DNA of 64,000 nucleotides from Pseudomonas sp. Marseille-Q3773 (lineage in GTDB: Bacteria; Pseudomonadota; Gammaproteobacteria; Pseudomonadales; Pseudomonadaceae), in assembly GCF_916618955.1 (NCBI RefSeq), contig NZ_OU745390.1, forward strand, positions 5,493,113-5,557,112, in the 5' to 3' direction. The notes under the pieces are model-generated. The model was not told the DNA's origin. It was given only the letters and a program-made list of their open reading frames with translations, and did no database searches. Every line of letters starts with the position of its first letter. Positions within the stretch are counted from its first letter, which is position 1. The translations under genes and the position numbers were made by a program. Below, piece after piece: positions 21,104 through 36,455 of this stretch.

Positions 21104-21865
21104 CTACAATCCAGCCACAATCTCCTTGCCCTGCTCGGGCCGCTGCAACCAGGCGCAAGCCAGCAGCCCCACCTCGAACAGCACCCACATCGGCACCGCC
21201 AGCATCGTCTGCGAAAACACATCCGGCGGCGTCAGGATCATCCCCACCACAAAGCAGCCAACGATCACGTAGGGCCTGCTACGGCGCAATGTCGCCACAT
21301 CGGCCAACCCCACCCAGACCACGATGAAGGTCGCCACCGGGATCTCGAAGGCCAGCCCGAACGCCAGGAACAGCGCCAGGATGAAGTCCAGGTACTGGCT
21401 GATGTCGGTCATCATCGCTACGCCTTCGGGCGTCACGCTGGCAAAGAAGCCGAACATCATCGGGAACACCAGGAAGAACGCGAAGGCCATGCCGGCATAG
21501 AACAGCACGATGCTCGACACCAGCAACGGCAGGGCAATACGCCGTTCGCGACGGTACAGCCCGGGCGCCATGAACCCCCAGGCCTGGTGCAGCAGCAGCG
21601 GCATGGCGAGGAAAAGCGCACACATCGCAGTCAGCTTGAACGGCGTCAGGAACGGCGAAGTGACGCTGGTGGCGATCATGCTTGCGCCCTCCGGCAGAAA
21701 GCGCCGCAGCGGTTCGGATATCAAGGTGTACAGCGTCTGGGCGAAGGGGAACAGGCCGGCGAACAGCAGCGCGACCAGCCCCAGGCAGCGCACCAGGCGC
21801 TTGCGCAGGTCGCGCAGGTGTTCGGTCAGCGGCATGCTGGCCGTCGGGTCCATTGCCGTGCTCAT
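21104..21865 (-). CDS. tatC: Sec-independent translocase TatC
   Basis: Receptor component of the twin-arginine translocase that recognises RR signal peptides. The 253-residue protein has six predicted transmembrane segments and the conserved N-terminal [18 protein letters not shown], with the Glu-His-Leu-Arg-Arg core. It follows tatB with an ATGA overlap. Because most pseudomonads carry a main tatABC near other genes, this locus may be a second Tat set serving the neighbouring Tat-signal phosphatases; that needs the full genome to confirm. Confidence 0.95.
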
Positions 21866-22149
21866 TCGGGCATTCTCCCTGGCTGTGTCGTGGCCGCTCC
21901 ATTGGCGGCATCTGCGCCGAGGCGGACGCCCTGGCGCAGTTCCTGCTCCAGGCGCTGCAAGGGCGCGTTATCGAAGCCAGGCAGCTCGATCTCCCGTTCC
22001 ACTTGCGCGCGCAAGGCCTGCATGGCCCGGCGCGCCTGGCCCAGGCCACGACCGAAGGTGCGTGCCGCCAGCGGCAGGCGCTCCGGGCCCAGCACCAGCA
22101 GGGCGACGACGCCTACCAGCAACAGTTCGCTGAAGCCTACCTCGAACAT
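21862..22149 (-). CDS. tatB: Sec-independent translocase TatB
   Basis: A 95-residue protein with the TatB pattern: a single N-terminal helix ([20 protein letters not shown]), the GPERLP hinge, then an amphipathic helix and a charged tail. TatB forms the receptor complex with TatC. The start at 22149 shares one base with the tatA stop (TGATG), and the stop overlaps the tatC start. Longer upstream starts would overlap tatA and add no TatB-like sequence. Confidence 0.94.
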
Positions 22150-22376
22150 CAGGCCTGGCGGTCCGTGTGCTGCTGCGCCGCCTGGCCGGTCAGCGGGCAT
22201 TGCGGCACCTGCGTGGGGCCAGCCGCGCTGGCGTCGTTGTCGCCGCCCATGGACTTGCGAAAGCCCTGGATCGCCTCGCCCACATCGCTACCCAGGCCCT
22301 TGAGGCGCTTGGTACCAAACAGCAGGAATACGATCAGCAGTACGATCACCAGTTGCCAGATTCCAATGCCACCCAT
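22149..22376 (-). CDS. tatA: Sec-independent translocase TatA
   Basis: Pore-forming component of the twin-arginine translocase, 75 residues. It has the TatA signature: [20 protein letters not shown], then [20 protein letters not shown], an amphipathic helix and a polar tail. It is first of tatA-tatB-tatC and divergent from gspK, with 143 bp between the starts. A PhoB-box-like pair at 22430-22447 faces this gene. The true start is the ATG at 22376; the longer frame to 22517 is non-coding leader. Confidence 0.95.
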
Positions 22377-22429
22377 TGCGACCACTCCTGTAAGGTCATG
22401 AAAAGGAAGGGCAATCGTGCCTTGTGCAG

Positions 22430-22447
22430 ATGACGGGCACATGACGA
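22430..22447 (-). promoter_or_regulatory. PhoB-box-like repeats before tatA
   Basis: Read toward tatA: TCGTCAT-GTGC-CCGTCAT, two 7-bp direct repeats with 11-bp spacing, matching the CTGTCAT half-site at 5/7 and 6/7. Ten bases further is CACGAT, a weak -10, and tatA starts 53 bp downstream of the box. It is a candidate site for PhoB control of the Tat operon. Confidence 0.5.
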
Positions 22448-22519
22448 TCGGTTGCTGCCATCTACCTGCAACACCCGACGTGTTGACTGGCGTTTTCATC
22501 TGCTTGTGGGTGTGCATGA

Positions 22520-23485
22520 ATGGGTGGCAGGCAACAGCGGGGCGCGGCCCTGCTGATGGTAATGGTGGTGCTGGCGATGCTGGCCGCGGGCATGGTCTGG
22601 CTGGTGGAGGATGGCCGTCGTCAGGTGGATGAGGTGCGCCTGCTGCACCAGCGGGTACAGGCGCGGGCCATGGAACAGGCAGGCCTGGCCTATGCCGGGC
22701 AGGCCCTGCGTGACCCCGCCTGGCGGCTCAGCCCGCTGTTCTGGCAGGCCTTGCGCGGGCAGCCGTTGAATTACGACTTTGCTGCCGGCCAGGCGCAGCT
22801 GCGGGTGCGCGACCAGCACACCTGCTTCAACGTCAATGCCTTGCTCGGTGCCGACGGTGAGCGTGCCGAGCGCCAGTTGCGTTACCTGCTGGGCAATGAC
22901 ATGGCCGCCGAACGCCTGGTCGATGCCCTGGCCGACTGGCTCGATGCCGATAACGACACCCGCCTGCAAGGCGCCGAGAGCGCCCAGTACCTGCGCCAGC
23001 AACCCGCGCGGCTAGCGGCCAACCAGCCGATGCTGGACACCAGCGAACTGAACCAGTTGCTGGAGCCGGATGCCAGCCGCCAAGGGCGTTACCCCATGCT
23101 GTGCGCGCTGCCGCAAACTACCGGCTGGCGGCTGAATGCCAATGCCCTGGGGCTGGAGCATCTGCCCTTGCTGGAGGCGCTGTACGAAGGGCGTTATCCG
23201 CGTTCGCTGCTGAGCCGTATCGTCAGCGGCCGGCCGGCATCCGGCTATGTGGATGCCGCCGCACTGCGCCAGGCGCTGGGGGCGGTGGATGACGAAACGT
23301 TCGAGCGGCTGAGCGAAGGGTTGCTGTTGAACAGCGGCTATTACCTGTTGCAGCTGACCTTCGCGGAGGAGGGGCGGGTGATACGCAGCGAGTTCCAGGT
23401 GGAGGCGCTGGGGGTGGTGCAGTGGCATGCCCGGGTGCCGGCGCAGCAGGTGCGGGTGCGCAGCCGGGAGCCGATTGTCTGGTAA
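22520..23485 (+). CDS. gspK: type II secretion minor pseudopilin GspK
   Basis: Tip pseudopilin of the T2SS pseudopilus. The 321-residue protein starts [20 protein letters not shown]: a short basic leader, prepilin peptidase cleavage after G8, and a hydrophobic helix. Like other GspK proteins it lacks Glu5 of the mature pilin. The large alpha-insert domain follows ([22 protein letters not shown] segment). It is separated from gspC-N by two enzyme genes and about 4 kb, and is divergent from tatA. A REP pair follows it, so it may be transcribed on its own. Confidence 0.88.
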
Positions 23486-23490
23486 TGTTC

Positions 23491-23590
23491 GCCGGCCTCT
23501 TCGCGGGTAAACCCGCTCCCACAGGGACCGCACAGTTTTTGAACCCTGTGCAGTACCTGTGGGAGCGGGTTTACCCGCGAAGAGGCCGGT
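23491..23590. repeat. REP pair (inverted)
   Basis: GCCGGCCTCTTCGCGGGTAA at 23491 and the inverted TGTGGGAGCGGGTTTACCCG ending near 23590. It lies between the convergent gspK and phoX-like genes, where it can separate their transcripts. Confidence 0.9.
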
Positions 23591-23624
23591 ACAGCCAGCA
23601 CAAGGCTGACTGACCGGCGCCCTT

Positions 23625-25685
23625 TCAGGCGGTGCCGATCTCCCCGCCATCGATACGCTGGATCACCACCGTCGCGGCCCGCGGCCTTACCGTGGTCCCG
23701 GCCGGGGTGGCATCGGTGGCCTTGTCGGTATATGGCCAGTTGTCCGGGTGCTGGATGTTGACGAACAGCGTCTTGTTGTCAGGGGTGAAGGTAATGCCGG
23801 TCACCTCGCAACCATTCGGGCCGACGAAGAAGCGGCGCAGGTCCACCTGATTCTGCGCATTCACCGATACCTGCTTGCCGCTGGCATCGACCAGGTTGGT
23901 CGGGATCACCGCCAGCAGCTGGTCATTGGTGTAGTCGGTCACCGTGCTCTCGCCATTGTCGGTCTCGAACCACAGCACGCCACGGCTATCGAAGCTCATG
24001 CCGTCAGGGCTGGCGAACTGGTTCAGTTCGGTCAGGCCTGAGCGGTTGATGTCGGCGGTGCCGGCCGCATTGGCGCCGAATACGAAGATGTCCCAGGTGA
24101 AGCTCAGCTGGTCGTCGCTGTCGTGCCAGCGAATGATGTGGCCGTGACGGTTCGGGCCGCGCGGGTTGGCAGCATCGACCTTTTCCGGGGTGCGCGCGCT
24201 GTTGTTGGTCAGGGTCAGGTACACGTCGCCGTTCAGCGGGTTGACCGTGGTCCATTCCGGGCGGTCCATCGGCGTTGCACCTACGGCATCGGCGGCGCCG
24301 CGGGTGTTGAGGATGATCCCCGGCAGGTCGCCATACAAGGCGCCCAGGGTGCTGCCGGCAGTGGTCGTGGTGGCAACGTCGAGCAGCAGCCATACCCCGC
24401 TGCCGTCGGCATTGAAGCGCGCCACGTACAGCTTGCCCTGGTCGAGGTACTTGGCACCGGTGGCCAGGCGGTCGGCCGGGTTGGCGTCGGCGGCATCCCA
24501 CACGGCGGTGGACACCCACTTGTACAGGTATTCGTTGTTCGAGTCGTCACCCATGTACCAGACCAGTGGCTTGCCGGCGACCGGCAGGCCCGGGGCGCAG
24601 CCCTCGTGACGGAAACGGCCCAGCGCGGTGCGCTTGGTGGCCAGGGTGGCGCTGTTGTACGGGTCGATCTCGACGATGTAGCCGTAGGTGCTGGCTTCGT
24701 TGCGGTAGTCGTCGGTTGCGCTGGCGCCTTTGACGGTAACGTCGAAACGGGCGAATTCGTCGGCCACCTCGCTGCTGTCACCCGCCGCGGTTTCCCATTT
24801 GTACTGGCCGCTGGAAGTGCCCACGCCAATGCGGCGCTGGTCTTCGGGACGGGTGCCTTTGTTGACGAAAATACCTGGCCAGTTCTCTTCACAGGTCAGG
24901 TAGGTACCCCATGGGGTATAGCCGTTGCCGCAGTTGTTGTTGGTGCCGCGGCAATGGGTGCCGTCCGGCGAATACTTGGTCTTGACGTGATCGGTGCCGC
25001 GCAGGGGACCGGTGATTTCCATGCGCGAGGCCGTGGTGAAACGGCGGTTCAGCGGGTCGTTGTCGACCACCTGCCAGCGGCCGCCGATTTTCTGCAGGCG
25101 CACCACACCGGCGCCGTGGGCGTTGATTTCCTTGCGCACTTCCTCGACCGGGCGCTTGCCGTTGCTATCGGTGGTCGGGCCGGCCGGGTGCAGGGCAGCG
25201 GTGTCGATGTACTCGAAGTTGATCGCCAGCAGGCCATCTTCCGAGCTGCCATTGATGGGGAAGAAGTGCATGCCGTCGTGGTGCATGCCCATGGCGTTGG
25301 CCTGGTCGGTCGAGGTATTGCTGCCGTCAGCCTTCCACGGGTTGCCGTTGCTGTTGAGCGGCGTGCCCCAGGGCGCCAGCACGTAGGCGCTGTAGCCGGC
25401 TGCAACCACGCAGGCGTCGGTGCGCGAGCCGGGGATGGACTGGAAGCCCAATGCCAGTTTTGGCTTTTCCGGCTCGGTCACCGGCGGTTCGGTGACGGGA
25501 TCATCGTGATCCGAACCCCCACCGTCGAAGCAGCCTGTCAGGCCGGTACCGGCAATCATGGCGATGGCGGCGCCCAGGCTGCCGCGCATCACGCTGCGAC
25601 GGCTCAGGTAGGCGTCCATGACGCTGGCCATCGGCAGGTTGCCGCTTGGGTTCCGGTCCAGGTTGTCGCCGGTATCTCGACTCAT
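23625..25685 (-). CDS. PhoX-family alkaline phosphatase, Tat lipoprotein signal
   Basis: A 686-residue PhoX/DUF839 phosphatase, a calcium- and iron-dependent phosphomonoesterase family induced by phosphate limitation. The N-terminus carries a twin-arginine motif (SRRSVMRG, R29-R30), a hydrophobic stretch, and a lipobox LTGC with C52, followed by an acidic Gly/Asp linker. Downstream it has PhoX-type segments such as CGNGYTPWGTYLTCEENWPG and PDGMSFDSRGVLWFETD. It is flanked by gspK and a divergent T2SS operon. From memory it resembles the phosphatase called UxpA in P. putida. A weak PhoB-like box lies at 25741-25758. Confidence 0.9.
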   Translation of the reverse strand: MSRDTGDNLDRNPSGNLPMASVMDAYLSRRSVMRGSLGAAIAMIAGTGLTGCFDGGGSDHDDPVTEPPVTEPEKPKLALGFQSIPGSRTDACVVAAGYSAYVLAPWGTPLNSNGNPWKADGSNTSTDQANAMGMHHDGMHFFPINGSSEDGLLAINFEYIDTAALHPAGPTTDSNGKRPVEEVRKEINAHGAGVVRLQKIGGRWQVVDNDPLNRRFTTASRMEITGPLRGTDHVKTKYSPDGTHCRGTNNNCGNGYTPWGTYLTCEENWPGIFVNKGTRPEDQRRIGVGTSSGQYKWETAAGDSSEVADEFARFDVTVKGASATDDYRNEASTYGYIVEIDPYNSATLATKRTALGRFRHEGCAPGLPVAGKPLVWYMGDDSNNEYLYKWVSTAVWDAADANPADRLATGAKYLDQGKLYVARFNADGSGVWLLLDVATTTTAGSTLGALYGDLPGIILNTRGAADAVGATPMDRPEWTTVNPLNGDVYLTLTNNSARTPEKVDAANPRGPNRHGHIIRWHDSDDQLSFTWDIFVFGANAAGTADINRSGLTELNQFASPDGMSFDSRGVLWFETDNGESTVTDYTNDQLLAVIPTNLVDASGKQVSVNAQNQVDLRRFFVGPNGCEVTGITFTPDNKTLFVNIQHPDNWPYTDKATDATPAGTTVRPRAATVVIQRIDGGEIGTA

Positions 25686-25724
25686 CAGGGTGTCCTTATG
25701 TTGGCTGAGTTGGAGGAAACCGCG

Positions 25725-25758
25725 ACTTTAGTGGGCAAATATGATGATTCATTGGCAG
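25725..25758 (-). promoter_or_regulatory. possible PhoB box and -10 before the PhoX gene
   Basis: Read toward the gene: CTGCCAA-TGAA-TCATCAT (25758-25741), then 10 bp, then TAAAGT (25730-25725) as a -10. The first half-site matches CTGTCAT at 5/7, the second only at 4/7. The spacing is as in PhoB-activated promoters. Confidence 0.35.
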
Positions 25759-25824: not shown

Positions 25825-25853
25825 TTGTCGGATTTCTGCCATCAAACTGTAAT
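25825..25853 (+). promoter_or_regulatory. PhoB-box-like triple repeat before the T2SS operon
   Basis: Three 7-bp half-sites at exact 11-bp spacing: TTGTCGG-ATTT-CTGCCAT-CAAA-CTGTAAT. They match CTGTCAT at 5/7, 6/7 and 6/7. They lie 57 bp before the SoxB-like gene that heads the gspC-N operon. A poor -10 (CAACAT) lies 10 bp beyond. This is the best Pho-box candidate in the window. Confidence 0.6.
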
Positions 25854-25909
25854 GCCGACGCCGCAACATCCGGGGCCCAGAATGGACATGGAAAAGGATG
25901 GCGGCTTCG

Positions 25910-27550
25910 ATGGCAAGCAGTGTGCACAGGCGCGAAGTGATCGGCTGGATGGGTGTCGGTGCCCTGGCGCCGTTGCTCGGCGCCTGCTCCGCCTTTCCTG
26001 GGCAACGGGGCGGCAACGCCAGCCTCGACCTGCTGTATGTAGCCGATACCCTCGATGCTCGCCAGCCCGGGCAGGCCGTGGTGCCGGCCACGCGTCTGGG
26101 GCCGGTCAGCCACCTGGGCCGCGCGCCTTGGATGACGGGCAGCAACGCCAGCCTCGCCTATCCGCAGCTGGCATCCCTGCTCGATGCCAGCCAGGCGGCC
26201 TCTGCCCAGCTGGGCGGCTATGCAGTGCTGGCGGCGTTGCTCGAGCAGTTGCGCAGCGAGGCCGGGGCAGGCAACAGCCTGACCCTGGAGAACGGCCAGG
26301 GCTGGAATGGCAGCGGCCTGGCCTACCTGACCCAGGGCGAAAGCGGCGTGCAAGGCAGCCACTTGCTGGGGATCGAAGCGCGGGTCAGCAGTGACGAGCG
26401 CGTGCTGTGGCCACAACGCTGCCCCGGCCTGTATCGCCAGGCCAGCGCCATTACGCTGGGGGCCGGGCTGGCAGAGGCACAGCGCCAGACCCTCGGCCTG
26501 GACAGCCTGCACCTGTTCGAGCGTGGCGGTGCACGGGTTGCCGTGGTAGGCGTGACCGATCCCTACGCCCAGGACCAGAAAGTCTCCCTCAAGCAGTGGT
26601 ACCAGGCGCTGCAGCCAGTGTTCGAGCAGGCACGCCGCGAGGCCGACCTGGTGGTGGCCTTGGCCGATGCTGGCACGGGCCCCGGACTGTGGCTGGCCGA
26701 GCGGGTGCCGCAAATCGACGTGCTGTTGTGCGCCCGTGGCCAGGACCTGTGGCCGGCACCGGTCGAGGTAAGCCAGGCCAGCGGCCGCCGGGTACCGGTG
26801 CTGTTCGCTGGTTGCCGGGGCAGCGGCGCCTTCCGCCTGCGCTGTCGGCGTGTGGCCGGGTTGTGGCAGTTCGATGGGCGCTTCTTCCCGGCCTTCGAAC
26901 AGCAGTTGGCCCCCGCTGCGCAGCTGCGTGTCGCACCCTTGCAGGCCGAGCTGCGTCAACAGCGCGCCGGCCATGCGGCCTGGCTCGATCAGCCCCTGGC
27001 CCGCGCGCCCCAGGCCCTGTGGCGCCGTGACACCCGCGGCGGCAGTTGGGACCGCCTGCTGCACCAGGCCCTGGCCGGCGACAGCGACATGCCGGTGCTG
27101 CTGCCAGGCCTGCGTTATGACTACCCGCTGCCAGCAGGGTCGGCCATTACCCGCGAACACTTGATCAGCCTCACCGGTGGCTACCCGGCGCCGGTGGTCG
27201 AAGCGCCAGCCCGGCAGGTCGAGCAGGTGCTGGAGAACGCTGCGGAGCAGCTGTTCGGCGACCCATTGCTGCTTGACAACAGCCAGGACCTGCCGCGCTG
27301 GCAAGGCCAGCCCTGGCGGGTCAGCTACAGCCCGCAAGGCAAGCGCATCAGCGACCTGGCACCGATACAGGGCCTGTGCCGCACCTTCGGCCTGCAATTC
27401 CAGGCCCAGGCCGGTGAGCCCCTGTGGCAAAGCGTTGAAGCCTGGCTCGCCCGCCAGCCAGCGGACTGGCAATTGGCGCCGCTGCAGTTGCCCGACGTGC
27501 GCTACGTACAGGGGCACCCGGGTTGGCACCCACGGCAGTTGGCCTCGTGA
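25910..27550 (+). CDS. SoxB/5'-nucleotidase-like lipoprotein, probable secreted phosphatase
   Basis: A 546-residue protein beginning MASSVHRREVIGWMGVGALA and PLLGACS: a twin-arginine motif (R7-R8), hydrophobic helix and lipobox with C26. The layout follows the SoxB/UshA metallophosphatase family: DLLYVADTLDARQ near the N-terminus, LENGQGWNGSG, and EADLVVALADAG. However, the metal-ligand residues of those motifs (DxH, GNHD, GHxH) look degraded. The ATG at 25910 has AAGGA at good distance; 25898 does not. The stop overlaps gspC (GTGA), so it heads the T2SS operon. From memory it resembles the P. putida secreted phosphatase UxpB. Enzymatic activity is uncertain. Confidence 0.75.
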   Translation: MASSVHRREVIGWMGVGALAPLLGACSAFPGQRGGNASLDLLYVADTLDARQPGQAVVPATRLGPVSHLGRAPWMTGSNASLAYPQLASLLDASQAASAQLGGYAVLAALLEQLRSEAGAGNSLTLENGQGWNGSGLAYLTQGESGVQGSHLLGIEARVSSDERVLWPQRCPGLYRQASAITLGAGLAEAQRQTLGLDSLHLFERGGARVAVVGVTDPYAQDQKVSLKQWYQALQPVFEQARREADLVVALADAGTGPGLWLAERVPQIDVLLCARGQDLWPAPVEVSQASGRRVPVLFAGCRGSGAFRLRCRRVAGLWQFDGRFFPAFEQQLAPAAQLRVAPLQAELRQQRAGHAAWLDQPLARAPQALWRRDTRGGSWDRLLHQALAGDSDMPVLLPGLRYDYPLPAGSAITREHLISLTGGYPAPVVEAPARQVEQVLENAAEQLFGDPLLLDNSQDLPRWQGQPWRVSYSPQGKRISDLAPIQGLCRTFGLQFQAQAGEPLWQSVEAWLARQPADWQLAPLQLPDVRYVQGHPGWHPRQLAS

Positions 27551-27972
27551 TCCTCATCTCGCGCCTGCTCACCGGCGCTGGCCTGACCCTGGCCGGCTGG
27601 CTGGCCGCCCAGTGCGTGCTGCAACTGAGCCGCCAGCCGCAACCGGCCATTGCGCCCGGCATGGCCGACCCGCCGCTGCCCGGGTTGATGGCCGGCCATT
27701 GGCGGGTGCCCGTCGACGATGGAGCCATCGCCCTTACCCGCCTGCCGTTGCACTACCTCGGCGGCCTCAAGGCCCAGCCACTGGCCGCCAGCGTGGTGGT
27801 GTTGCGCTATGGCGAGCAGGTGCGCACCTTGGCCCGTGGCCAGCGCCTGGCACCGGGGATCGTGCTGCAGGACATCGACCACGATGGCCTGATTTTCAAC
27901 AACCAGGGGCGGCGTGAACGCCTGCCCTGGCCGCCACGCCCCGTCGTGACCGGCTTCAAGCGGCAAGGATGA
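27547..27972 (+). CDS. gspC: type II secretion protein GspC (short, no PDZ domain)
   Basis: Inner-membrane protein linking the assembly platform to the secretin. It starts with GTG overlapping the previous stop. An N-terminal membrane helix (about 2-28) is followed by a homology-region domain (about 75-130) with the recognisable LARGQRLAPGIVLQDIDHDG and the ending GRRERLPWP. At 141 residues it is roughly half the usual length and ends where a PDZ or coiled-coil domain would begin. GspC is assigned from position before gspD and the HR-like segment. Confidence 0.78.
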   Translation: MILISRLLTGAGLTLAGWLAAQCVLQLSRQPQPAIAPGMADPPLPGLMAGHWRVPVDDGAIALTRLPLHYLGGLKAQPLAASVVVLRYGEQVRTLARGQRLAPGIVLQDIDHDGLIFNNQGRRERLPWPPRPVVTGFKRQG

Positions 27973-27975: not shown

Positions 27976-29745
27976 ATGCCTGTCAGATATTGCGTAGCGG
28001 CCGCGCTGAGCCTGGCCTTGTCCGTGACCTTGCCGATGGCCAGAGCCGAAGAACCGGTGTTCGATGACAATGGCACGCCCCTGTACGAGGTGAACTTTGT
28101 CGACACCGATCTTGGCGAGTTCATCGACAGCGTATCGCGCATCACCGGCACGACCTTCATCGTCGACCCCCGGGTCAAAGGCAAGGTCACCGTGCGCACC
28201 GTCGATATGCACGACGCCGATGCGATCTACGACATCTTCCTGGCGCAGCTGCGCGCCCAAGGCTATGCCGCTGTCGACCTGCCCAACGGTAGCGTGAAGA
28301 TCGTCCCCGATCAGGCTGCGCGCCTGGAGCCGGTGCCGGTGGAGCCGGCCGGGCAGCAGGGGGAGGGCAGCGACAGCGTGGCCACCCGGGTATTCAATGT
28401 GCGCAACGCGGCCAGCGAACAGGTGCTCGGCATTCTCAAGCCGCTGATCGACCCGCGCGTGGGTGTGATCACGCCGTATCCAGCAGCGCAGCAACTGGTG
28501 GTGACCGACTGGCGCAGCAACCTGGATCGTATCGCCAGCCTGCTGCAACATCTCGACCGCCCAGGCGAAGTGACGGACAACACTGGCACCCAGGTAATCT
28601 ACCTGCGCCACGCCAGTGCCAGCGAAGTGGTCAAGGTGCTGCGTGGCCTCGGCCAGGAAGGCAGGGTGCCGGCCGAAGGCGCCAATGCAGCCGAGGCCAG
28701 GGATAGGCCGGTGACGGCTGTGGGCGGTGGCAGCGGTATCCGCCTGGAATATGAGGAAGGCACCAACGCCGTGGTCATGGTCGGCCCCGACAGCGAGCTG
28801 GCTGCCTACCGCAGCATCGTCGAGCAACTGGATATCCGGCGCGCCCAGGTGGTGGTGGAGGCAATCATCGCCGAGGTCTCCGACAGCAGCGCCCAGGAGC
28901 TGGGCGTGCAGTGGCTGTTCGCCGACGAGAAGTTTGGCGCTGGCATCGTCAACTTCGGCAGCAATGGGGTAAACATCGCCAGTATCGCCGGGGCGGCCGC
29001 CAGCGGCGACAGCGAGGCACTGGGCGACCTGCTGTCATCGACTACGGGAGCCACGGCGGGCATCGGTCATTTCGGCGGTGGTTTCAACTTTGCCATGCTG
29101 GTCAATGCACTGAAGGGCAAGAGTGGCTTCAACCTGCTGTCTACGCCCACCCTGCTGACCCTGGACAACGCCGAGGCGTCGATCCTGGTCGGCCAGGAAG
29201 TGCCCTTCGTTACCGGTTCGGTGACCCAGAACAACGCCAACCCGTACCAGACCATCGAGCGCAAGGAAGTCGGCGTGAAGCTGCGCATCAAGCCGCAGAT
29301 CAACATCGACAACAGTGTGCGCCTGGATATCGTCCAGGAGGTGTCGTCGATCGCCGACTCGAGCGCGGCCAGCGACGTGATCACCAACAAGCGCGAGATC
29401 AAGACCAAGGTGATGGTCGAGGACAACGGCCTGGTGATCCTTGGCGGCCTGATCAGCGACGAGCTGAGTACCAGCGACCAGCGTGTGCCACTGTTGGGCG
29501 ATATCCCTTACCTGGGCCGGCTGTTCCGCTCCGATGCCAGCAAGAACACCAAACAGAACCTGATGGTGTTCATTCGCCCGCGTATCCTGCGTGACGGGCC
29601 CAGCCTGGCCGGGCTCAGCGAAAGCAAGTACCGCAGCCTGCAACAGACCACGCCGCTGCAATTACCGGACCTTGCAGCCGGCAGCCCGCAGTTGCTGCAG
29701 GTATTCCCTGCCAGCCGCGCGCGCCTGGAAGGCGGTGACTGGTGA
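27976..29745 (+). CDS. gspD: type II secretion secretin GspD (lacking one N-domain)
   Basis: Outer-membrane secretin channel, 589 residues. A signal peptide (1-24, ending MARA) is followed by N0 (about 30-110, TTFIVDPRVKGKVTV), N1 (about 135-195), and what looks like N3 (about 200-295, ending IVEQLDIRRAQVVVEAIIAE). The secretin domain follows, with FNLLSTPTLLTLDNAEA, VPFVTGS and LGDIPYLGRLFRS. The usual N2 domain between N1 and N3 seems missing, which accounts for the short length. An S-domain-like tail follows (about 540-589). It lies 3 bp after gspC. Confidence 0.95.
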   Translation: MPVRYCVAAALSLALSVTLPMARAEEPVFDDNGTPLYEVNFVDTDLGEFIDSVSRITGTTFIVDPRVKGKVTVRTVDMHDADAIYDIFLAQLRAQGYAAVDLPNGSVKIVPDQAARLEPVPVEPAGQQGEGSDSVATRVFNVRNAASEQVLGILKPLIDPRVGVITPYPAAQQLVVTDWRSNLDRIASLLQHLDRPGEVTDNTGTQVIYLRHASASEVVKVLRGLGQEGRVPAEGANAAEARDRPVTAVGGGSGIRLEYEEGTNAVVMVGPDSELAAYRSIVEQLDIRRAQVVVEAIIAEVSDSSAQELGVQWLFADEKFGAGIVNFGSNGVNIASIAGAAASGDSEALGDLLSSTTGATAGIGHFGGGFNFAMLVNALKGKSGFNLLSTPTLLTLDNAEASILVGQEVPFVTGSVTQNNANPYQTIERKEVGVKLRIKPQINIDNSVRLDIVQEVSSIADSSAASDVITNKREIKTKVMVEDNGLVILGGLISDELSTSDQRVPLLGDIPYLGRLFRSDASKNTKQNLMVFIRPRILRDGPSLAGLSESKYRSLQQTTPLQLPDLAAGSPQLLQVFPASRARLEGGDW

Positions 29746-31193
29746 TGCTGCCCTATCGCCAGGCGCGCCAGAGCGGGGTGGCCATGGCCCCGACCGAGCA
29801 GGGCTGGCAGCTGTGGCTGCGGCCCGATGCCGACAGCGCCCAGCTGCAGGAACTGTTGCGCGTGCATGGCCAGCCGAGCCAGCTCGAATACCTTGAGCCT
29901 GCGCTGTTCGATGAACGCCTGGGCCAGCTGTACCAGGCGGAGGCCAGCGCCACCGAGGCACTGATCGAAGGCATCGGTGAGCAGGTTGACCTGGACAGCC
30001 TGATGAGCGAGATGCCGCGCATCGAGGACCTGCTGGAAAGCGACGACGAAGCCCCGGTGATTCGCCTGATCAATGGCCTGTTCGGCCAGGCCCTGCGCCT
30101 GCGTGCCTCGGATATCCACATCGAAACCTTCGAGCAGAGCCTGGTGGTGCGCCTGCGGGTCGACGGCCACCTGCGCGAGGTGTTGCGCCCACCGCGGGCG
30201 CTTTCCGCCATGCTGGTGTCGCGGATCAAGGTCATGGCGCGCCTGGACATTGCCGAAAAGCGCCAGCCCCAGGATGGCCGTATCACCCTGCGTGCAGCCG
30301 GGCGCGAGGTGGACGTACGGATCTCGACCCTGCCTGGCATCCATGGCGAACGGGTGGTGATGCGCGTGCTCGACAAGCAGGCCAGCCTGCTGGCGCTGGG
30401 CAACCTGGGCATGCCGCCGGCGGTGCTGCAGGGCCTGCGTGGCTGCCTGGCGCGGCCCAACGGCATCGTGCTGTCCACCGGCCCGACCGGCTCGGGCAAG
30501 ACCACCACCCTGTACGCCAGCCTCAACAGCCTCAACGATGGCAGCCGCAATATCCTCACGGTCGAGGATCCGGTGGAGTACGCCATCGCCGGCATTGGCC
30601 AGACCGCCATCAACCCGCGCGCCGGGCTGACCTTCGCCAGCGGCTTGCGAGCAATCCTGCGCCAGGATCCGGATGTGATCATGCTCGGCGAAATCCGCGA
30701 CCAGGAAACCGCGCAGATCGCCGTGCAGGCCAGCCTCACCGGCCACCTGGTGCTGTCCACCCTGCACACCAACAGCGCGGTGGGCGCGGTGACCCGCCTG
30801 CGCGACATGGGCATCGAACCGTTCCTGATCGCCTCGTGTCTGCGCGGCGTTCTGGCCCAGCGCCTGGTGCGGCGCCTGTGCAGTTGCGCCGTGGCGCAAC
30901 CGCTGCAGCCGGCTGAACGTGAGCTGTGGCCCGAGCTGGCGGCACTCGGCAGCAGCTACCACGCGGTAGGCTGCGAGCAGTGCCAGGGCAGCGGTTACCA
31001 CGGGCGTCTGGGCCTGTACGAATTCATCGAGCTGGACGCCGGGCTGGTCGGCCTGCTGTATGACGGTGCCAGCGAACTGGCCATGCACGACTACCTGGCC
31101 GAACGCCGGCAAAGCCTGGTGGCGATGGCCAGCGACTGCCTGGCGCGTGGCGAGACCAGCCTGGCCGAAGTGCTGCGCGTGGTGCAGGGCTGA
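29745..31193 (+). CDS. gspE: type II secretion ATPase GspE
   Basis: Cytoplasmic ATPase that powers pseudopilus assembly. The 482-residue protein has a short N1E-like domain and a RecA-like motor domain with Walker A STGPTGSGKTTT, Walker B IMLGEIRDQETAQ and the His box LVLSTLHTNSAVGAV. A zinc-finger region has CSC and CEQC pairs (the first is CxC rather than CxxC). GTG at 29742 and ATG at 29745 are both possible starts; the ATG overlaps the gspD stop as TGATG. Confidence 0.95.
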   Translation: MLPYRQARQSGVAMAPTEQGWQLWLRPDADSAQLQELLRVHGQPSQLEYLEPALFDERLGQLYQAEASATEALIEGIGEQVDLDSLMSEMPRIEDLLESDDEAPVIRLINGLFGQALRLRASDIHIETFEQSLVVRLRVDGHLREVLRPPRALSAMLVSRIKVMARLDIAEKRQPQDGRITLRAAGREVDVRISTLPGIHGERVVMRVLDKQASLLALGNLGMPPAVLQGLRGCLARPNGIVLSTGPTGSGKTTTLYASLNSLNDGSRNILTVEDPVEYAIAGIGQTAINPRAGLTFASGLRAILRQDPDVIMLGEIRDQETAQIAVQASLTGHLVLSTLHTNSAVGAVTRLRDMGIEPFLIASCLRGVLAQRLVRRLCSCAVAQPLQPAERELWPELAALGSSYHAVGCEQCQGSGYHGRLGLYEFIELDAGLVGLLYDGASELAMHDYLAERRQSLVAMASDCLARGETSLAEVLRVVQG

Positions 31194-31196: not shown

Positions 31197-32399
31197 ATGC
31201 CGACCTATCGCTACCAGGCCGTCGATCTTGGCGGCAAGACCCACAAGGCCAGCCTGCAAGCCGACAGCGAACGCCACGCGCGCCAGTTGTTGCGCGAGCA
31301 GGGCCTGTTCGCCCGCCGGTTGCAGCGCCACGAGGCCGGTACCACGCAATCCCGGCGCCAGCGCCTGAGCCGCGCCCAGCTGTGCGAGCTGACCCGTCAG
31401 TTGGCCACCCTGACAGGTGCCGGCATCCCCCTGGTCGACGCCCTGGCGACACTCGAACGCCAATTGCCCCAGCCCGCCCTGCACAGCGTACTGGTAGCCT
31501 TGCGCGGCTCGCTTGCCGAAGGCCTGGGGCTGGCCCGCAGCCTGGCGCGCCAAGGCGCACCGTTCAGCGGCCTGTACTGCGCGCTGGTGGAGGCCGGCGA
31601 ACGCTCCGGGCGTCTGGCCCAGGTGCTGGCCCGCCTGGCCGACCACCTGGAGCAGGTGCAACGGCAACAGCACAAGGCGCGCACTGCGCTGATCTACCCC
31701 ACGGTGCTGATGGGGGTATCGCTGGCGGTGGTGGTCGGCCTGATGACCTTCGTCGTGCCCAAACTTACCGAGCAGTTCGCCCATGCTGGGCAGAGCCTGC
31801 CGCTGATCACCTCGTTGTTGATCGGCCTGAGCCAGGGGCTGGTACGTGCCGGGCCCTGGCTGCTGGGGCTGGCTGGGGGGCTCGCTGTGCTCGGCGGCTG
31901 GTTGCTGCGCAAGCCGCAGTGGCGCCTGCGCCGCGACCAGCTGCTGTTGCGCCTGCCACGTATCGGCGACCTGCTGCAGGTGCTGGAAAGCGCGCGCCTG
32001 GCACGCAGCCTGGCCATTCTCACTGGCAGCGGCGTGGCCCTGCTCGAAGCCCTGCAAGTGGCCACCGAAACCGTCGGCAACCGGCGTATCCACCAGGCCA
32101 TGGAGCAGGTGCGCCTGCAGGTGCAGGGCGGTACCAGCCTGCACCGCGCGCTGGATGCCAGCCAGCAATTCCCGCCGCTGCTGGTGAACATGGTCGGCAG
32201 TGGCGAGGCCAGCGGCACCCTGGCCGAGATGCTCGAGCGTGTGGCCGACGACCAGGAGCGCGGCTTCGCCCGCCAGGTCGACACTGCCATGGCGCTGTTC
32301 GAACCCCTGATGATCCTGGTGATGGGCGCCGTGGTGCTGTTCATCGTGCTGGCCGTGCTGCTGCCGATCATGCAACTCAACCAGGGCCTGCAACTGTGA
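31197..32399 (+). CDS. gspF: type II secretion inner-membrane platform protein GspF
   Basis: A 400-residue polytopic platform protein that couples GspE to the pseudopilins. It begins MPTYRYQAVDLGGKTHKASL, has two homologous cytoplasmic T2SSF domains (about 70-190 and 270-395), and three membrane helices near 170-195, 220-240 and 370-395. Signature segments include LTRQLATLTGAGIPLVDALA and ARSLAILTGSGVALLEAL. It lies 3 bp after gspE. Confidence 0.95.
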   Translation: MPTYRYQAVDLGGKTHKASLQADSERHARQLLREQGLFARRLQRHEAGTTQSRRQRLSRAQLCELTRQLATLTGAGIPLVDALATLERQLPQPALHSVLVALRGSLAEGLGLARSLARQGAPFSGLYCALVEAGERSGRLAQVLARLADHLEQVQRQQHKARTALIYPTVLMGVSLAVVVGLMTFVVPKLTEQFAHAGQSLPLITSLLIGLSQGLVRAGPWLLGLAGGLAVLGGWLLRKPQWRLRRDQLLLRLPRIGDLLQVLESARLARSLAILTGSGVALLEALQVATETVGNRRIHQAMEQVRLQVQGGTSLHRALDASQQFPPLLVNMVGSGEASGTLAEMLERVADDQERGFARQVDTAMALFEPLMILVMGAVVLFIVLAVLLPIMQLNQGLQL

Positions 32400-32416
32400 A
32401 CGCAAGGAGTATTGCC

Positions 32417-32851
32417 ATGCAGCATCGACGCCACCGCCAGCGCGGTTTCACCCTCATGGAAATCATGGTGGTGATCTTCATCATCGGCCTGCTCATCGCC
32501 GTGGTCGCGCCCAGCGTGCTCGGCAACCAGGACAAGGCCATGAAACAGAAGGTCATGGCCGACCTGGCCACCCTGGAGCAGGCCCTGGACATGTACCGTC
32601 TCGACAACCTGCGCTTTCCCAGCAACGAGCAGGGCCTGGCTGCGCTGGTGAAAAAGCCGGCCCAGGAACCGCTGCCGCGGGCCTGGCGCAGTGACGGCTA
32701 CGTGCGCCGCCTGCCCGAAGACCCGTGGGGGACTCCGTATCAGTACCGCATGCCCGGAGAGCATGGCCGGGTCGACGTGTACTCGCTGGGTGCCGACGGC
32801 CTGCCGGGTGGCGAAGGCCAGGATGCCGACCTGGGAAACTGGGAGCTGTAA
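32417..32851 (+). CDS. gspG: type II secretion major pseudopilin GspG
   Basis: Major pseudopilin that forms the piston fibre. The 144-residue precursor starts MQHRRHRQRGFTLMEIMVVI: prepilin peptidase cleavage after G10, Glu5 of the mature protein, then the hydrophobic helix. The classical C-terminal calcium-site region ends VYSLGADGLPGGEGQDADLG, and PLPRAWRSDGYVRRLPEDPW is typical of GspG. No separate gene finder frame is needed: ATG at 32417 has AAGGAG 8 bp upstream. No prepilin peptidase gene is in the window, so the pilus peptidase PilD probably processes it. Confidence 0.95.
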   Translation: MQHRRHRQRGFTLMEIMVVIFIIGLLIAVVAPSVLGNQDKAMKQKVMADLATLEQALDMYRLDNLRFPSNEQGLAALVKKPAQEPLPRAWRSDGYVRRLPEDPWGTPYQYRMPGEHGRVDVYSLGADGLPGGEGQDADLGNWEL

Positions 32852-32854
32852 CGG

Positions 32855-33292
32855 GTGCGCCGGCAGCAGGGTTTCAGCCTGATCGAATTGCTGGTGGTGC
32901 TGGCCATCGCCGGGCTGATGAGCGGCTTGGCGGTGGTCAGCCTCGGCAGCGGCCAGGCCAGTGTCGACCAGGCCTTGCAGCGGCTGGCGGCCGAGACCCG
33001 CAGCCAGGCCGCACTGGCCCGGCATGCCGGGCAACTGCGCGGCCTGCGCTGGAACGGCCAGCGCCCGGAGTTCGTGCGGCGCGAAGGCGCGGCCTGGGCG
33101 CCCGAAGCGGTTGCGCTGGGCGACTGGCCCGAAGGCCTGTACCCGGATTGGCCAGCCAGCCCGCAACCTCAACTGCTGTTCACCCCGCATGGCTGGGCGC
33201 AGCCGGGCAGCGTGCGCTGGCGCTGGGCCGATGGTAGCCAGCGCTGGACCTGGCGTCGTGATGGCCGTTTGCAGATAGCGGTGGTGCCATGA
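32855..33292 (+). CDS. gspH: type II secretion minor pseudopilin GspH
   Basis: A 145-residue minor pseudopilin starting with GTG: (M)RRQQGFSLIELLVVLAIAGL. Cleavage is predicted after G6, with Glu5 present. The C-terminal beta domain is rich in Trp, Pro and Arg (PEGLYPDWPASPQPQLLFTP). It lies 3 bp after gspG, and its end overlaps the gspI start by 4 bp. Confidence 0.88.
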   Translation: MRRQQGFSLIELLVVLAIAGLMSGLAVVSLGSGQASVDQALQRLAAETRSQAALARHAGQLRGLRWNGQRPEFVRREGAAWAPEAVALGDWPEGLYPDWPASPQPQLLFTPHGWAQPGSVRWRWADGSQRWTWRRDGRLQIAVVP

Positions 33293-33657
33293 AGCGGCAT
33301 CAGCGCGGCTTCACCTTGCTCGAGGTGACCGTGGCCCTGGCGATCGCTGCCGTGCTGGCAGTGATCACCAGCCAGGTGTTGCGCCAGCGCCTGGCCGTGC
33401 AGGACAACCTGCAACAACACCGCCTCGGCCTGCTGTGTGCCCGCGAGCTGCAAACCCGCTTCGCCGTCGAGCAGTTCTGGCCCGCCAGCGATCAGGTGAG
33501 CGGTGAGCTCAGCCAGGGTGGCCAGGCGTGCCACTGGCAGCTGCAACTGCGCCGCACTGGTGTGCGCGACCTGCGTCGCGGGGAACTACTGCTGTTCGCC
33601 GATCGCGACCAGCGCCTGCCGCTAGGCCAGTACACCGTGTTTCTGGAGCGCCCATGA
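33289..33657 (+). CDS. gspI: type II secretion minor pseudopilin GspI
   Basis: A 122-residue minor pseudopilin, MKRHQRGFTLLEVTVALAIA, with cleavage after G7 and Glu5 present. GspI nucleates the pseudopilus tip with GspJ and GspK. It overlaps gspH by 4 bp. The following gspJ leader begins about 95 bp later, across a REP-like insertion, although an ATG overlapping this stop is in frame with gspJ. Confidence 0.88.
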   Translation: MKRHQRGFTLLEVTVALAIAAVLAVITSQVLRQRLAVQDNLQQHRLGLLCARELQTRFAVEQFWPASDQVSGELSQGGQACHWQLQLRRTGVRDLRRGELLLFADRDQRLPLGQYTVFLERP

Positions 33658-33684
33658 GTTACAGAAACGGTGAAGTTCGTGCGG

Positions 33685-33720
33685 CCCCTGTGGGAGCGGA
33701 CACGCCCGCTGCCACATCGG
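33685..33720. repeat. REP-like element between gspI and gspJ
   Basis: CCCTGTGGGAGCGGACACGCCCGCTGCCACA is a single REP-type palindrome (GTGGGAGCGG / CCCGCTGCCAC) inside the otherwise overlapping T2SS operon. It lies in the 95-bp gap between the gspI stop and the preferred gspJ start. Confidence 0.65.
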
Positions 33721-33752
33721 TTCAGCCCTCTCGCCAGCGCAGGCGCTTGCCA

Positions 33753-34343
33753 ATGAAGCGCCGTCAGGCCGGCCTGACCCTGATCGAGCTGATGGTCGCC
33801 CTGGCCCTGACCGCCGTGCTCGGTATCCTGCTCGCCGCTTTGGTCAATGGCTGGCTCAAGGTGCGCGAGCGCTTGCAGGTCACCACCGGGGAAACCTCGG
33901 TGCTGGACTTTTGCCTGGCCCTGGAACGGCGCTTCGACAGCCCGGCAATGCGCCGCATCTACGAACAGCGCCTGCCCCTGGCCAGCCGCTGGCTCGACTG
34001 GCAGCCAGCCAGCAACCAGCTGCTCTGGGTCGCCTCCACCGGCCTGCCGGAAGCCGAAGGCGGTGCACACTTGCAACGTCAGCGCCTGCGTTTCGAGGCC
34101 CGTGAGCAACGCCTGTTGCTGGAAAGCTCGGCCGACCTGTACGCCGCTGGCGCGCCGCGCTGGCTCGAGCGTGAACGGCTAGAGCGGGTCAGCGCCATGA
34201 ATGTTCTGTATTACCAGGGCGGCCGCTGGCTGGCCTGGCCTTCCGACCAACCCGCGCACCCCGGCCGTGGCGTGCGCCTGGAATTGCAGCGTGACGGGGC
34301 CCCCTATGTCTGCACCTTCGCGCTCCCATGGGGGCGCTCATGA
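33753..34343 (+). CDS. gspJ: type II secretion minor pseudopilin GspJ
   Basis: A 196-residue minor pseudopilin starting MKRRQAGLTLIELMVALALT. The normal short basic leader, cleavage after G7 and Glu5 argue for the ATG at 33753. An in-frame ATG at 33654 overlaps the gspI stop, but its 33 extra residues would translate a REP-like palindrome and bury the prepilin leader inside the protein. The 3' end overlaps gspL by 4 bp (ATGA). Confidence 0.87.
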   Translation: MKRRQAGLTLIELMVALALTAVLGILLAALVNGWLKVRERLQVTTGETSVLDFCLALERRFDSPAMRRIYEQRLPLASRWLDWQPASNQLLWVASTGLPEAEGGAHLQRQRLRFEAREQRLLLESSADLYAAGAPRWLERERLERVSAMNVLYYQGGRWLAWPSDQPAHPGRGVRLELQRDGAPYVCTFALPWGRS

Positions 34344-35416
34344 AAGTTGAATGGCGACGGCGCACAGCGGCCCGGCCCTGGCTGTTGCTGCGACCGGGTG
34401 CTACCTGGCACTGGGCGCTGGTCGATGGCGGCGTTGTGCAAAGCCACGGGCAGGGCAAGCCGCCGCTGCCCCTGCAGGCGCGAGCCGCGCTGATTGTGCC
34501 GGCCGAGGCCTGCAGCCATTTCCGCGTGCCGGCGCCGCCCGGGCTCAAACGTGAAGAATGGCCGCTGCTGCTCGAAGACCGCTTGCTGCAGGCCGCGGAT
34601 GAAGTGACTTGTGCCTGCCTGGCGCGTGAGCCCGGTTACCTTCGCTTGCTGGTGGTGGCGCGGCAGCAACTGGACGGCTGGCGAAGTCAGTGTGGCGAAT
34701 GGGACTTGCCGGTGGAACGTTGCTGGGCGGAGTTGCAGCTACTGCCGACACCCGCGGCGGGCGCTGCCTGGCACTGGCAGCGCAGCGCCGATCTGCGCTT
34801 GTGCAAAGGGCTGGGCGCAGACGGCCAGGAACATTGGCTGGCCTGGCCGCAGGCATTGGGTGATGCGCTTCCACAACCGTGGTCGGGGCTGCACACGGTG
34901 TCGCTGGGCGGTGACTGGCCATCGGCGTTGCCATCGCTCGATAAATTGCCGGGCCTGTTCGAGGCTACCCGCAAACCGCGTGCATTGCCGCTGGTATCCC
35001 GGCCGCAGCGACGCCTGCTTGCCGCTTGCCTGGCATTGGCTGCTGTCTGGGCCGGTCTGTGGATGACCCAGCAATGGCGCCAGGCGCAACTCTGGCGCAG
35101 CCAGGTGGTGGCCGTGACCGGCGCCCAGCCCAGCCCGCGTCACGCCGCGCAGGCGCTCAGACGGCTGCGCGAAGGTGAGTTGCAACAACGCGTGCGCCTG
35201 CGCCAGCTCGAAGACCTGCAAGCGGCATTGCAGGCCTGGCTGGGTGAGCACCCCGGCTGGCACCTGCGCGCGGTGCGCTTCGATGGCCAGCGCTGGCACG
35301 TGCGCCTGGCGGGTGAGGGTAGTGCACCGCCATGGCACGACATGGCGACCGCTGCGGGTGCCACTGTTCAGGTGCAAGCGGGCCAGGCGGTATTCGACCT
35401 GGGGGCCGCCTCATGA
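34340..35416 (+). CDS. gspL: type II secretion protein GspL
   Basis: A 358-residue bitopic platform protein. The N-terminal cytoplasmic actin-like domain (about 1-220) recruits GspE, one membrane helix follows at about 226-245 (LLAACLALAAVWAGLW), and the rest is a periplasmic ferredoxin-like domain. Overall similarity to family members is low, as is normal for GspL. The ATG at 34340 overlaps the gspJ stop; gspM overlaps its own stop. Confidence 0.85.
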   Translation: MKVEWRRRTAARPWLLLRPGATWHWALVDGGVVQSHGQGKPPLPLQARAALIVPAEACSHFRVPAPPGLKREEWPLLLEDRLLQAADEVTCACLAREPGYLRLLVVARQQLDGWRSQCGEWDLPVERCWAELQLLPTPAAGAAWHWQRSADLRLCKGLGADGQEHWLAWPQALGDALPQPWSGLHTVSLGGDWPSALPSLDKLPGLFEATRKPRALPLVSRPQRRLLAACLALAAVWAGLWMTQQWRQAQLWRSQVVAVTGAQPSPRHAAQALRRLREGELQQRVRLRQLEDLQAALQAWLGEHPGWHLRAVRFDGQRWHVRLAGEGSAPPWHDMATAAGATVQVQAGQAVFDLGAAS

Positions 35417-35799
35417 ACCGTGACTGGATACAGCGTCACCGTATCAAGTTCGCCTGGGCACTGATTGCCCTGTTGCTGGCCGTGCTGGCCCTGCGCGCGG
35501 GCCTGGCGCAATGGCGCGAGCTCAGCCAGTGGCGCGGGCTGGCGGAACAGGCCGCCAGCCTGCACGGCGGCACGGGGGTGAGCCTGGAACGGCTACGTCA
35601 GTCGGCCCAGGCCCGGCGTATCGAACTTGCTGAGGTCGATGCGCAAGGCAAGGTCTGGCAACTGCGTGGCCAGGTAGCTGACGAGCTTGTACTGCAAGGC
35701 TGGCTGCAGAGCCTGCGTGTCGAAGGCGTGCAGCCACTGCAATGGGGGCTGGAACAAGACGGCAAGGGCCTGCGCTTCGAGCTGGTGGTGCAACCATGA
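35413..35799 (+). CDS. gspM: type II secretion protein GspM
   Basis: A 128-residue bitopic inner-membrane protein: short cytoplasmic N-terminus MNRDWIQRHRIKF, one helix (about 13-31), and a small periplasmic domain. GspM stabilises GspL. It is recognised mainly from topology, size and position between gspL and gspN. Four-base overlaps occur at both ends. Confidence 0.82.
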   Translation: MNRDWIQRHRIKFAWALIALLLAVLALRAGLAQWRELSQWRGLAEQAASLHGGTGVSLERLRQSAQARRIELAEVDAQGKVWQLRGQVADELVLQGWLQSLRVEGVQPLQWGLEQDGKGLRFELVVQP

Positions 35800-36455
35800 G
35801 CCGAACAAGTGTGGCCTGGGTGCTGCTGGTATTCGTCGTGTCGCTGCTGCTGGAGCTGCCGGCCAGCTGGGTGGTGAGAGCGTTCGGCCTGCCCGTGCGC
35901 GAAGCCAGTGGCAGCCTGTGGCGTGGCCAGGCACAACAGCTGGGGCCGGTCGGGCCGCTGCACTGGGCCGTGCACCCTTGGCGCCTGCAGGCTAGCGCGG
36001 AGCTGGGCTGGCAGGGCCAGGCCTGGCGATTGCGTGGTGAAGGCTGGCCATGGCGCTGGCAGCTGGAAGCGGCGGCCATGGGCGCGCAGGCGACGGTAGT
36101 CACGGATTACCGCGTGGCCGGGCAATGGCAGGGCGCGCTGCGGGTTCAGGGCGCCGGGCGCCGATGCCAGGGCAGCGATGGCCGCCTGGTCGTTACCGAC
36201 CTGGCCCTGAGCGAGCCATGGTCGCTGGGCCTGGGGCAGGGCTGGCTGGAAATGGACTGCCGTAATGGCTGGCGCCTGCGCGGGCAACTGGCCCAACCGG
36301 GGCAGCATCACCTGGCAATGGAGGCAGACCTACAGGGGCGCCGGACCCAGCTAGTGTACGAATTGCAGCCCGACGCGGCGCTCACGCCTTTGCTGCGTGG
36401 GGCGCAGTGGCTCGGGCCGCAGGCGCTGGCCGGCCGACGAGACCTTCGCTGGTAG
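35796..36455 (+). CDS. gspN: type II secretion protein GspN
   Basis: A 219-residue protein with one N-terminal membrane helix (VAWVLLVFVVSLLLELPASW) and a beta-rich, tryptophan-rich periplasmic domain (GSLWRGQAQQLGPVGPLHW is a typical GspN segment). GspN is found only in some T2SSs and is often dispensable. It is the last gene of the operon; a REP-like hairpin follows and separates it from the convergent tpsA gene. Confidence 0.83.
   Translation: MSRTSVAWVLLVFVVSLLLELPASWVVRAFGLPVREASGSLWRGQAQQLGPVGPLHWAVHPWRLQASAELGWQGQAWRLRGEGWPWRWQLEAAAMGAQATVVTDYRVAGQWQGALRVQGAGRRCQGSDGRLVVTDLALSEPWSLGLGQGWLEMDCRNGWRLRGQLAQPGQHHLAMEADLQGRRTQLVYELQPDAALTPLLRGAQWLGPQALAGRRDLRW

Follow-up and report, generated by a model that had tools for sequence, protein, structure and literature searches.

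The window analysed here, 64,000 nucleotides of Pseudomonas sp. Marseille-Q3773 that form the final 64 kb of a single contig of 5,557,112 bases, carries at positions 21104-36455 a second set of twin-arginine translocation (Tat) genes, the two lipoprotein genes uxpB and uxpA, and the genes of a type II secretion system (T2SS). Gene calls bear out the clustering of tatABC, gspK, two lipoprotein genes and gspC-N that an initial annotation had read from the DNA, and the order, purL - tatCBA(-) gspK(+) uxpB(-) uxpA(+) gspC-N(+), is of the P. putida type. The locus is the known P. putida tat-1/uxpA-uxpB/xcp locus (Putker et al. 2013, Environ Microbiol 15:2658), coherent and mostly described, with the same layout and no difference found; in the literature the PhoX protein goes by the name UxpB and the second lipoprotein by UxpA. 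The abstract of Putker 2013 is said to describe export of UxpB by Tat, its lipidation and its secretion by Xcp in P. putida, and reportedly also that one of two tat clusters adjoins uxpB and xcp, with induction dependent on inorganic phosphate (Pi), and that both Tat systems are able to export UxpB; the tatABC-T2SS linkage stressed by the initial annotation was thus, reportedly, already in print. This known layout limits the surprise, and the novelty rests on UxpA and a short GspC rather than on gene order. To the picture of the P. putida locus we add the replaced metal site of UxpA, the absence of uxpA where the T2SS is absent, the dispensability of the locus Tat set (Tat-1) and the short GspC.

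Tat-1 lies on the minus strand and comprises tatC (21104-21865; PF00902, 230 bits; TIGR00945 above cut-off), tatB (21862-22149; TIGR01410, 67.4 bits vs. a cut-off of 56.5) and tatA (22149-22373; PF02416 and TIGR01411, both above cut-off). A divergent promoter region (22374-22519) separates tatA from the plus-strand minor pseudopilin gene gspK (xcpX; 22520-23485; NF037980, 167 bits vs. a cut-off of 130; PF21687), which is followed by uxpB (23625-25685, minus strand) and uxpA (25898-27550, plus strand). The remaining T2SS genes are all on the plus strand: gspC (xcpP; 27547-27972), the secretin gene gspD (27976-29745; TIGR02517, 562 bits, above cut-off), the ATPase gene gspE (29742-31193; PF00437, 452 bits; TIGR02533, 619 bits vs. 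630), gspF (31197-32399; PF00482, 201 bits), the major pseudopilin gene gspG (32414-32851; PF08334, 142 bits), gspH (32855-33292; TIGR01708, 110 bits vs. 80), gspI (33289-33657; PF02501, 52 bits), gspJ (33651-34343, true start probably ~33756; called from a prepilin motif, position and homologues), gspL (34328-35416; PF12693, 85 bits, above cut-off; TIGR01709, 58 bits vs. 65), gspM of the xcpZ type (35407-35799; TIGR04412, 139 bits vs. 60) and gspN (35796-36455). The last had no family match in profile searches of the window proteins and is called by position, with a homologue at the same place in related loci. One locus therefore holds secretin D, ATPase E, platform F, pseudopilins G-K, L and M. 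The weakest calls are gspC, below its Pfam cut-off, and gspE and gspL, which fall just below the NCBIfam cut-off yet exceed the Pfam cut-off. No prepilin peptidase gene gspO was seen within the locus, a genome-wide search not having been made.

UxpB is a PhoX-family alkaline phosphatase, matching PF05787 above cut-off and over its full length (454 bits, 2-515 of 515) and PDB entry 3zwu with an E value of 8e-105. By eye, its N-terminus has a twin-arginine motif (SRRSVMRG), then a lipobox (LTGC) followed by Phe-Asp. The residues after the lipobox cysteine govern the sorting of bacterial lipoproteins. Where uxpB stands with the T2SS, Cys-Phe-Asp was found in 60 of 60 rows (59 distinct, L079 being identical to L088) and in nine of ten further T2SS loci, G247 having Cys-Ser-Asp with the Asp at +3 kept; the uxpB lipobox of G794 was left out of this further count. 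In six loci without the T2SS, the motif is Cys-Phe-Asp twice, Cys-Leu-Asp, Cys-Phe-Ser and Cys-Leu-Gly once each, and in one the cysteine is gone, a variation that we read as a relaxed need for inner-membrane retention. The Tat-then-T2SS route that the initial annotation envisaged fits PhoX, and passages of three later papers cite Putker to that effect: for secretion of UxpB via Tat (PMC12700990), for lipoproteins retained on the inner membrane and secreted by a T2SS (PMC5472700) and for a PhoX as substrate of an Xcp T2SS (PMC4509608). Klebsiella pullulanase, in a passage of PMC5472700, is likewise a lipoprotein that a retention signal holds at the inner membrane before a T2SS takes it over. 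UxpB differs from pullulanase in its Tat-type signal and in having Asp at +3. Pullulanase itself is exported by Sec and has Asp at +2.

UxpA also has, by eye, a twin-arginine motif (HRREVIGW) and a lipobox (LGAC), as the initial annotation had stated for both proteins, but it has probably lost its metal site, and neither a second enzyme nor the plural in "metal-loaded phosphatases" is borne out. The fold is that of SoxB/5'-nucleotidase; there is no Pfam match, and UxpA scores 145 bits against the SoxB family TIGR04486, for which the cut-off is 550. Compared with the SoxB thiosulfohydrolase/5'-nucleotidase family at seven positions, which we take to be the metal ligands, UxpA differs at six and keeps one. 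Its own fixed set is Asp50, Leu52, Gln134, Ser165, Asp257, Arg280 and Gln282, of which only Asp50 is the SoxB residue. The set is invariant in 39 of 39 sequences of at least 50% identity, and the remodelled pocket (Asp166, Arg168, Asp257, Arg280) is nearly invariant, on which ground we rejected a decaying gene. Judged from the sequence, it is very likely that UxpA is a pseudoenzyme and that it belongs with the secretion machinery, and this, not the gene layout, is the new part; we found no paper joining SoxB with a pseudoenzyme in a search that mostly did not reach subscription papers, so that an earlier report of the lost site is possible. The invariance of the new set would also suit an enzyme that has acquired metal-poor or metal-free chemistry from the replaced residues, a reading that we regard as very improbable: in every UxpA row examined, other residues stand in place of the second Asp and of each of the five His of the SoxB site, and we know of no precedent for such chemistry in the SoxB family. 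Some public records label UxpA a 2',3'-cyclic-nucleotide phosphodiesterase, 5'-nucleotidase or SoxB. The ligand positions contradict these labels, and phosphorus-cycling surveys that count UxpA as a phosphatase would therefore overcount.

In readable rows of UxpA the +2 residue is Ser, Ala or Thr (18 of 184 rows were unread), and without the Asp of the UxpB lipobox UxpA would probably pass on to the outer membrane. Passages of PMC5082522 describe a UshA-like homologue of P. putida BIRD-1 as not secreted under Pi depletion; on our own reading this homologue is UxpA, which speaks against the initial view of UxpA as a secreted substrate.

Conservation was assessed in a named-genome scan for UxpA, giving 57 loci, all labelled Pseudomonas except two labelled Pantoea, and in an overlapping sample of 119 genus genomes. 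The complete layout tatCBA-gspK-uxpB-uxpA-gspC-gspD is kept in 50 of the 57 named loci, among them P. putida strains and P. capeferrum WCS358, and purL is in view next to tat in 39. TatC is encoded in 51; in five of the other six (L031, L050, L054, L055 and L078) the contig stops at or just past uxpB, and in L079 at tatA. L079, which is the same stretch as L088, corresponds to G076 of the genus sample, a fragment ending early with gspK only, on a 4.5-kb contig with tatA at its edge. Among the 51 tatC-bearing loci, gspC runs on into gspD in all but L064 (Pseudomonas sp. SDI), where ~3.2 kb with other open reading frames (ORFs) separates uxpB from uxpA (6795-10001) and RHS-like ORFs (by eye; 12072-16269) take the place of gspD after gspC. 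Loss of gspE in L064 was rejected because an 87% identical gspE lies elsewhere in that genome, as expected of rearrangement or a split assembly. Over the named loci, identity ranges from 81 to 98% for gspE and from 82% down to 38% for gspN; gspL, gspM and gspN (34328-36455) are the fastest-changing genes of the cluster. Judged by UxpA, Pseudomonas sp. UBA4617 (97%) is the nearest of the named relatives. Outside the family, 293 genomes of the order gave UxpA only in G247, besides the window's own, and 18 other matches that are SoxB-like or were checked no further than the ligand row; 369 genomes of the class gave one further match (G466), with the SoxB ligand residues kept. A protein collection adds UxpA records from Halomonas and Litchfieldella.

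The presence of uxpA tracks that of the T2SS. UxpA occurs in 20 of the 119 genus genomes, with a UxpB-type PhoX gene and gspK adjoining uxpA in all 20. UxpB-type PhoX (bit score ~450-470) occurs in 26, of which six lack any uxpA match, and in the stretches fetched around uxpB in these six genomes we found none of tatABC, gspK, uxpA or gspC-N; two of them (G024, G025) have a different gspK elsewhere. Since uxpB sits inside the missing set, the losses (or gains) lie to its left as well as to its right. In five of the six uxpB-only loci purL and yqfO lie near uxpB, the contig ending in the sixth, and in four an fhaB-fhaC pair abuts uxpB. In the G091 locus (L084, 10660-13935), where tat, gspK and the T2SS are absent, the interval between uxpB and yqfO holds an incomplete 3' end of a second uxpB and, by eye, a transposase-like ORF. 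No uxpA without any trace of a T2SS was seen among the mapped loci. One candidate for uxpA and T2SS without uxpB, L165 (G794), was rejected when uxpB was located just outside the stretch first fetched.

This joint absence bears on whether UxpA might instead be a ligand-binding or sensing lipoprotein (for phosphate, a nucleotide or another anion) that aids capture of the UxpB product or substrate at the surface, outside secretion. Pi-starvation regulation and the near-invariance of the pocket, beyond what a decayed site would show, agree with such a role. Pure binding of the UxpB product would not require uxpA and the T2SS to be missing together from the six uxpB-only loci, and we consider the idea rather unlikely.

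The gspC gene, of 141 codons in the window, begins with a GTG that overlaps the uxpA stop by four bases, and the same overlap is found in 50 of 56 loci. Its product scores 20.2 bits for T2SSC, below the cut-off of 27, and has no PDZ match; GspC length is 141-142 amino acids in all 56 loci measured. Beyond these, GspC is 292 amino acids long in L112 and 255 in L170, each with a PDZ-like tail below the Pfam cut-off, and ~249 in five more loci of one other genus. Not every locus therefore has the short form, and UxpA accompanies short and long GspC alike, which led us to reject UxpA as a simple stand-in for the PDZ domain of GspC.

Regulation by phosphate is suggested by a Pho box, CTGCCATCAAACTGTAAT (25836-25853, plus strand), between uxpB and uxpA, which matches 12 of 14 consensus positions and has an extra half-site, TTGTCGG, 11 bases upstream. 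A Pho box scoring 11 to 13 of 14 lies 149-178 bases from the uxpB start in all 57 regions (the window and 56 of the 57 named loci, L064 having been left out by a length filter), and none of 500 shuffles of the window region reaches 12. A scan of the window with a simple Pho-box pattern gave 35 matches vs. 30 expected, not above chance, so that only the fuller-consensus site at 25836 stands out, being the sole site in the window with at least 12 of 14. The tatA-gspK region holds Pho-box-like sites of 11 of 14 at 22430 (minus) and 22455 (plus) and reaches at least 10 in 51 of 53 regions examined; with 11 reached in eight and 10 in 43 of 500 shuffles of the window region, these sites are suggestive only. 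Within 300 bases upstream of uxpB in the T2SS-less loci the best match is 9 of 14 in four of six, and 11 and 12 in the other two; there Pho control of uxpB may be lost or located elsewhere. In P. putida BIRD-1, according to passages of PMC5082522, proteins raised at low Pi include PhoX, UxpA, "General secretion pathway protein K / tatA" and "protein G / tatG", and these were undetected in a phoBR mutant.

The genome encodes two TatC matches at E ≤0.001, Tat-1 and one other whose surroundings, with names assigned from the sequences, read as ubiE-ubiJ-ubiB-hisI-hisE-tatABC; a housekeeping tatABC is thus present alongside Tat-1, and the first of the conditions that the initial annotation had named as fatal to its module idea, a genome lacking a second tatABC, does not apply. 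Co-occurrence of tatABC and the T2SS across Pseudomonas, which the initial annotation had proposed to check, exceeds chance: a second tatC lies within ~6 kb of uxpA in 17 of 20 uxpA-bearing genus genomes, vs. two of 99 without uxpA, where it is unlinked (G030, partial, and G082) and showed no T2SS link in the stretches seen (Fisher p ~1e-15 over 119 genomes that are related and hence non-independent). In G111 TatC is split into two pieces. In a TatC tree that took in 16 of the 51 named Tat-1 loci (seven of 70 intended rows, T1_L048, T1_L073, X2_G030, O_L126, O_L128, O_L129 and O_L139, were left out), the 17 Tat-1 rows form one clade (support 100/99) beside housekeeping Pseudomonas TatC and apart from the rest of the order. 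A horizontal origin of Tat-1 was considered; the tree speaks rather for an ancient duplication inside the family or close to it, the placement within the family being unsure.

Tat-1 is dispensable. G018 and G026 keep uxpA, uxpB and the T2SS with a single TatC away from the locus; in the UxpA tree both are nested among Tat-1 bearers (support for the G026 placement, 83/72), so that these two genomes have probably lost Tat-1. Another genome of this genus, G918, also has the module without Tat-1 and a single TatC, and outside the genus a single TatC accompanies UxpA in eight of eight genomes of the family sample and in G247 of the order. The initial proposal of one functional unit therefore holds as far as co-inheritance and shared Pho-type promoters go, and fails for a dedicated Tat as a required part. 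Its full form, a private Tat exporting two metal phosphatases that the T2SS then secretes, draws on the physical linkage and Pho-type promoters, on the second tatABC and on the identity of UxpB as PhoX by family and structure match; set against the loss of six of the seven SoxB ligand positions in UxpA and the absence of Tat-1 from the uxp-T2SS loci of G018, G026, G918 and all eight UxpA genomes of other family genera, it is distinctly improbable.

Links to Tat recur in other forms. An intact orphan tatA (77 amino acids) diverges from gspK in L164 (4594-4824, minus) and L170 (15032-15262, plus), in G783 and G931, genomes of other genera that have the uxp-T2SS module without linked tatBC. In G931 the T2SS also ends one gene from the housekeeping tatABC-hisE-hisI (L174, 5569-8849), and in G247 the only tat set lies ~4 kb from uxpB; the other six family genomes showed neither orphan tatA nor proximity to the housekeeping tat in the stretches fetched. 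A tie to Tat thus recurs, and a dedicated tatABC is not required. The G931 arrangement, in which a copy of tat may have been carried along, could mean that Tat-1 sits beside the T2SS by inherited neighbourhood only, with no functional tie. This we hold to be improbable. In a P. putida study tat-1 is said to be enriched at low Pi, the tatA-gspK region holds its Pho-box-like sites, suggestive only, and the finding of an orphan tatA next to gspK in two further genera suggests repeated recruitment. For BIRD-1, passages of PMC5082522 give the TAT pathway as enriched when Pi is low.

Taken together, we think it probable that the locus is a Pi-starvation secretion island that exports UxpB by Tat, retains it on the inner membrane and transfers it by the T2SS, with UxpA as a non-catalytic secretion partner. 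PhoB would activate genes of both strands, with uxpB and tat read in one direction and gspK and uxpA-gspC-N in the opposite one. UxpB would fold in the cytoplasm, cross the inner membrane by Tat-1 or the housekeeping Tat, be lipidated and held there through the lipobox Asp at +3, and then be carried across the outer membrane by the T2SS of the locus. UxpA would be exported and lipidated in like manner without being a phosphatase, would probably continue to the outer membrane, and would most likely serve as a non-catalytic T2SS partner (substrate receptor, secretin helper or chaperone) made in a coupled fashion with GspC. Tat-1 would be a late add-on, probably raising Tat capacity under Pi starvation. 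More tentatively, and with less than even confidence, we propose that UxpA is a former SoxB/5'-nucleotidase turned dedicated non-catalytic outer-membrane lipoprotein of a Pi-starvation T2SS, which would recognise Tat-exported UxpB or pass it to the secretin in step with the short, PDZ-less GspC.

Several observations weigh against this picture of the locus. Asp50 is still present in UxpA, the Gln at the last ligand position is presumably also the residue of E. coli UshA, and by its sequence UxpA may bind a single metal. Only a few lineages may be represented by the six uxpB-only genomes. UxpA adjoins uxpB in the mapped loci except two, L064, with its insertion between the two genes, and L165/L175, where uxpB is placed beyond gspK; given this adjacency, UxpA acting directly with UxpB is nearly as good an explanation as UxpA acting in the T2SS. 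UxpA also occurs beside the PDZ-tailed GspC of L112 and L170, Cys-Phe-Asp is kept in two of the six T2SS-less UxpB proteins, and in L064 gspD-N do not follow gspC, the 87% identical gspE lying on another contig. Finally, a passage of PMC9945222 cites Putker for an outer-membrane-anchored PhoX-family lipoprotein, and release of UxpB into the medium may accordingly be partial.

A possible parallel to UxpA is ElpS of Caulobacter crescentus, described in passages of PMC2996285 as a Pi-starvation lipoprotein encoded near gspC that is not itself a phosphatase, yet whose overproduction raises secreted phosphatase activity, and that reaches the cell surface without the T2SS. It differs from UxpA in that elpS is separated from gspC by a TonB receptor gene and no PhoX is named, and those passages mention no Tat signal (PMC2996285). 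How a T2SS chooses its cargo is a long-standing question, and the locus offers a small system with a single evident cargo, in which the gene of a probable pseudoenzyme is absent from six genomes where the cargo gene stands without the machine. If our more tentative reading of UxpA is right, a pseudoenzyme would be a component of a secretion system, and evolution would have linked Tat, T2SS and cargo more than once, by an own tatABC, by an orphan tatA or by a position next to the housekeeping tat.

The flanks of the locus are a purL gene with a small ORF that has a sub-threshold CutA1 match on one side and, adjoining gspN on the other (36513-42749), genes for an FhaB-type two-partner secretion exoprotein and a ShlB-type transporter. 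Between gspK and uxpB (~23492-23590) lies a long inverted repeat that by eye resembles a repetitive extragenic palindrome. In G018 (L086, 15917-19457) and G026 (L087, 3115-6658), the module, without Tat-1, stands not beside purL but beside genes that we read as lpxC-ftsZ-ftsA.

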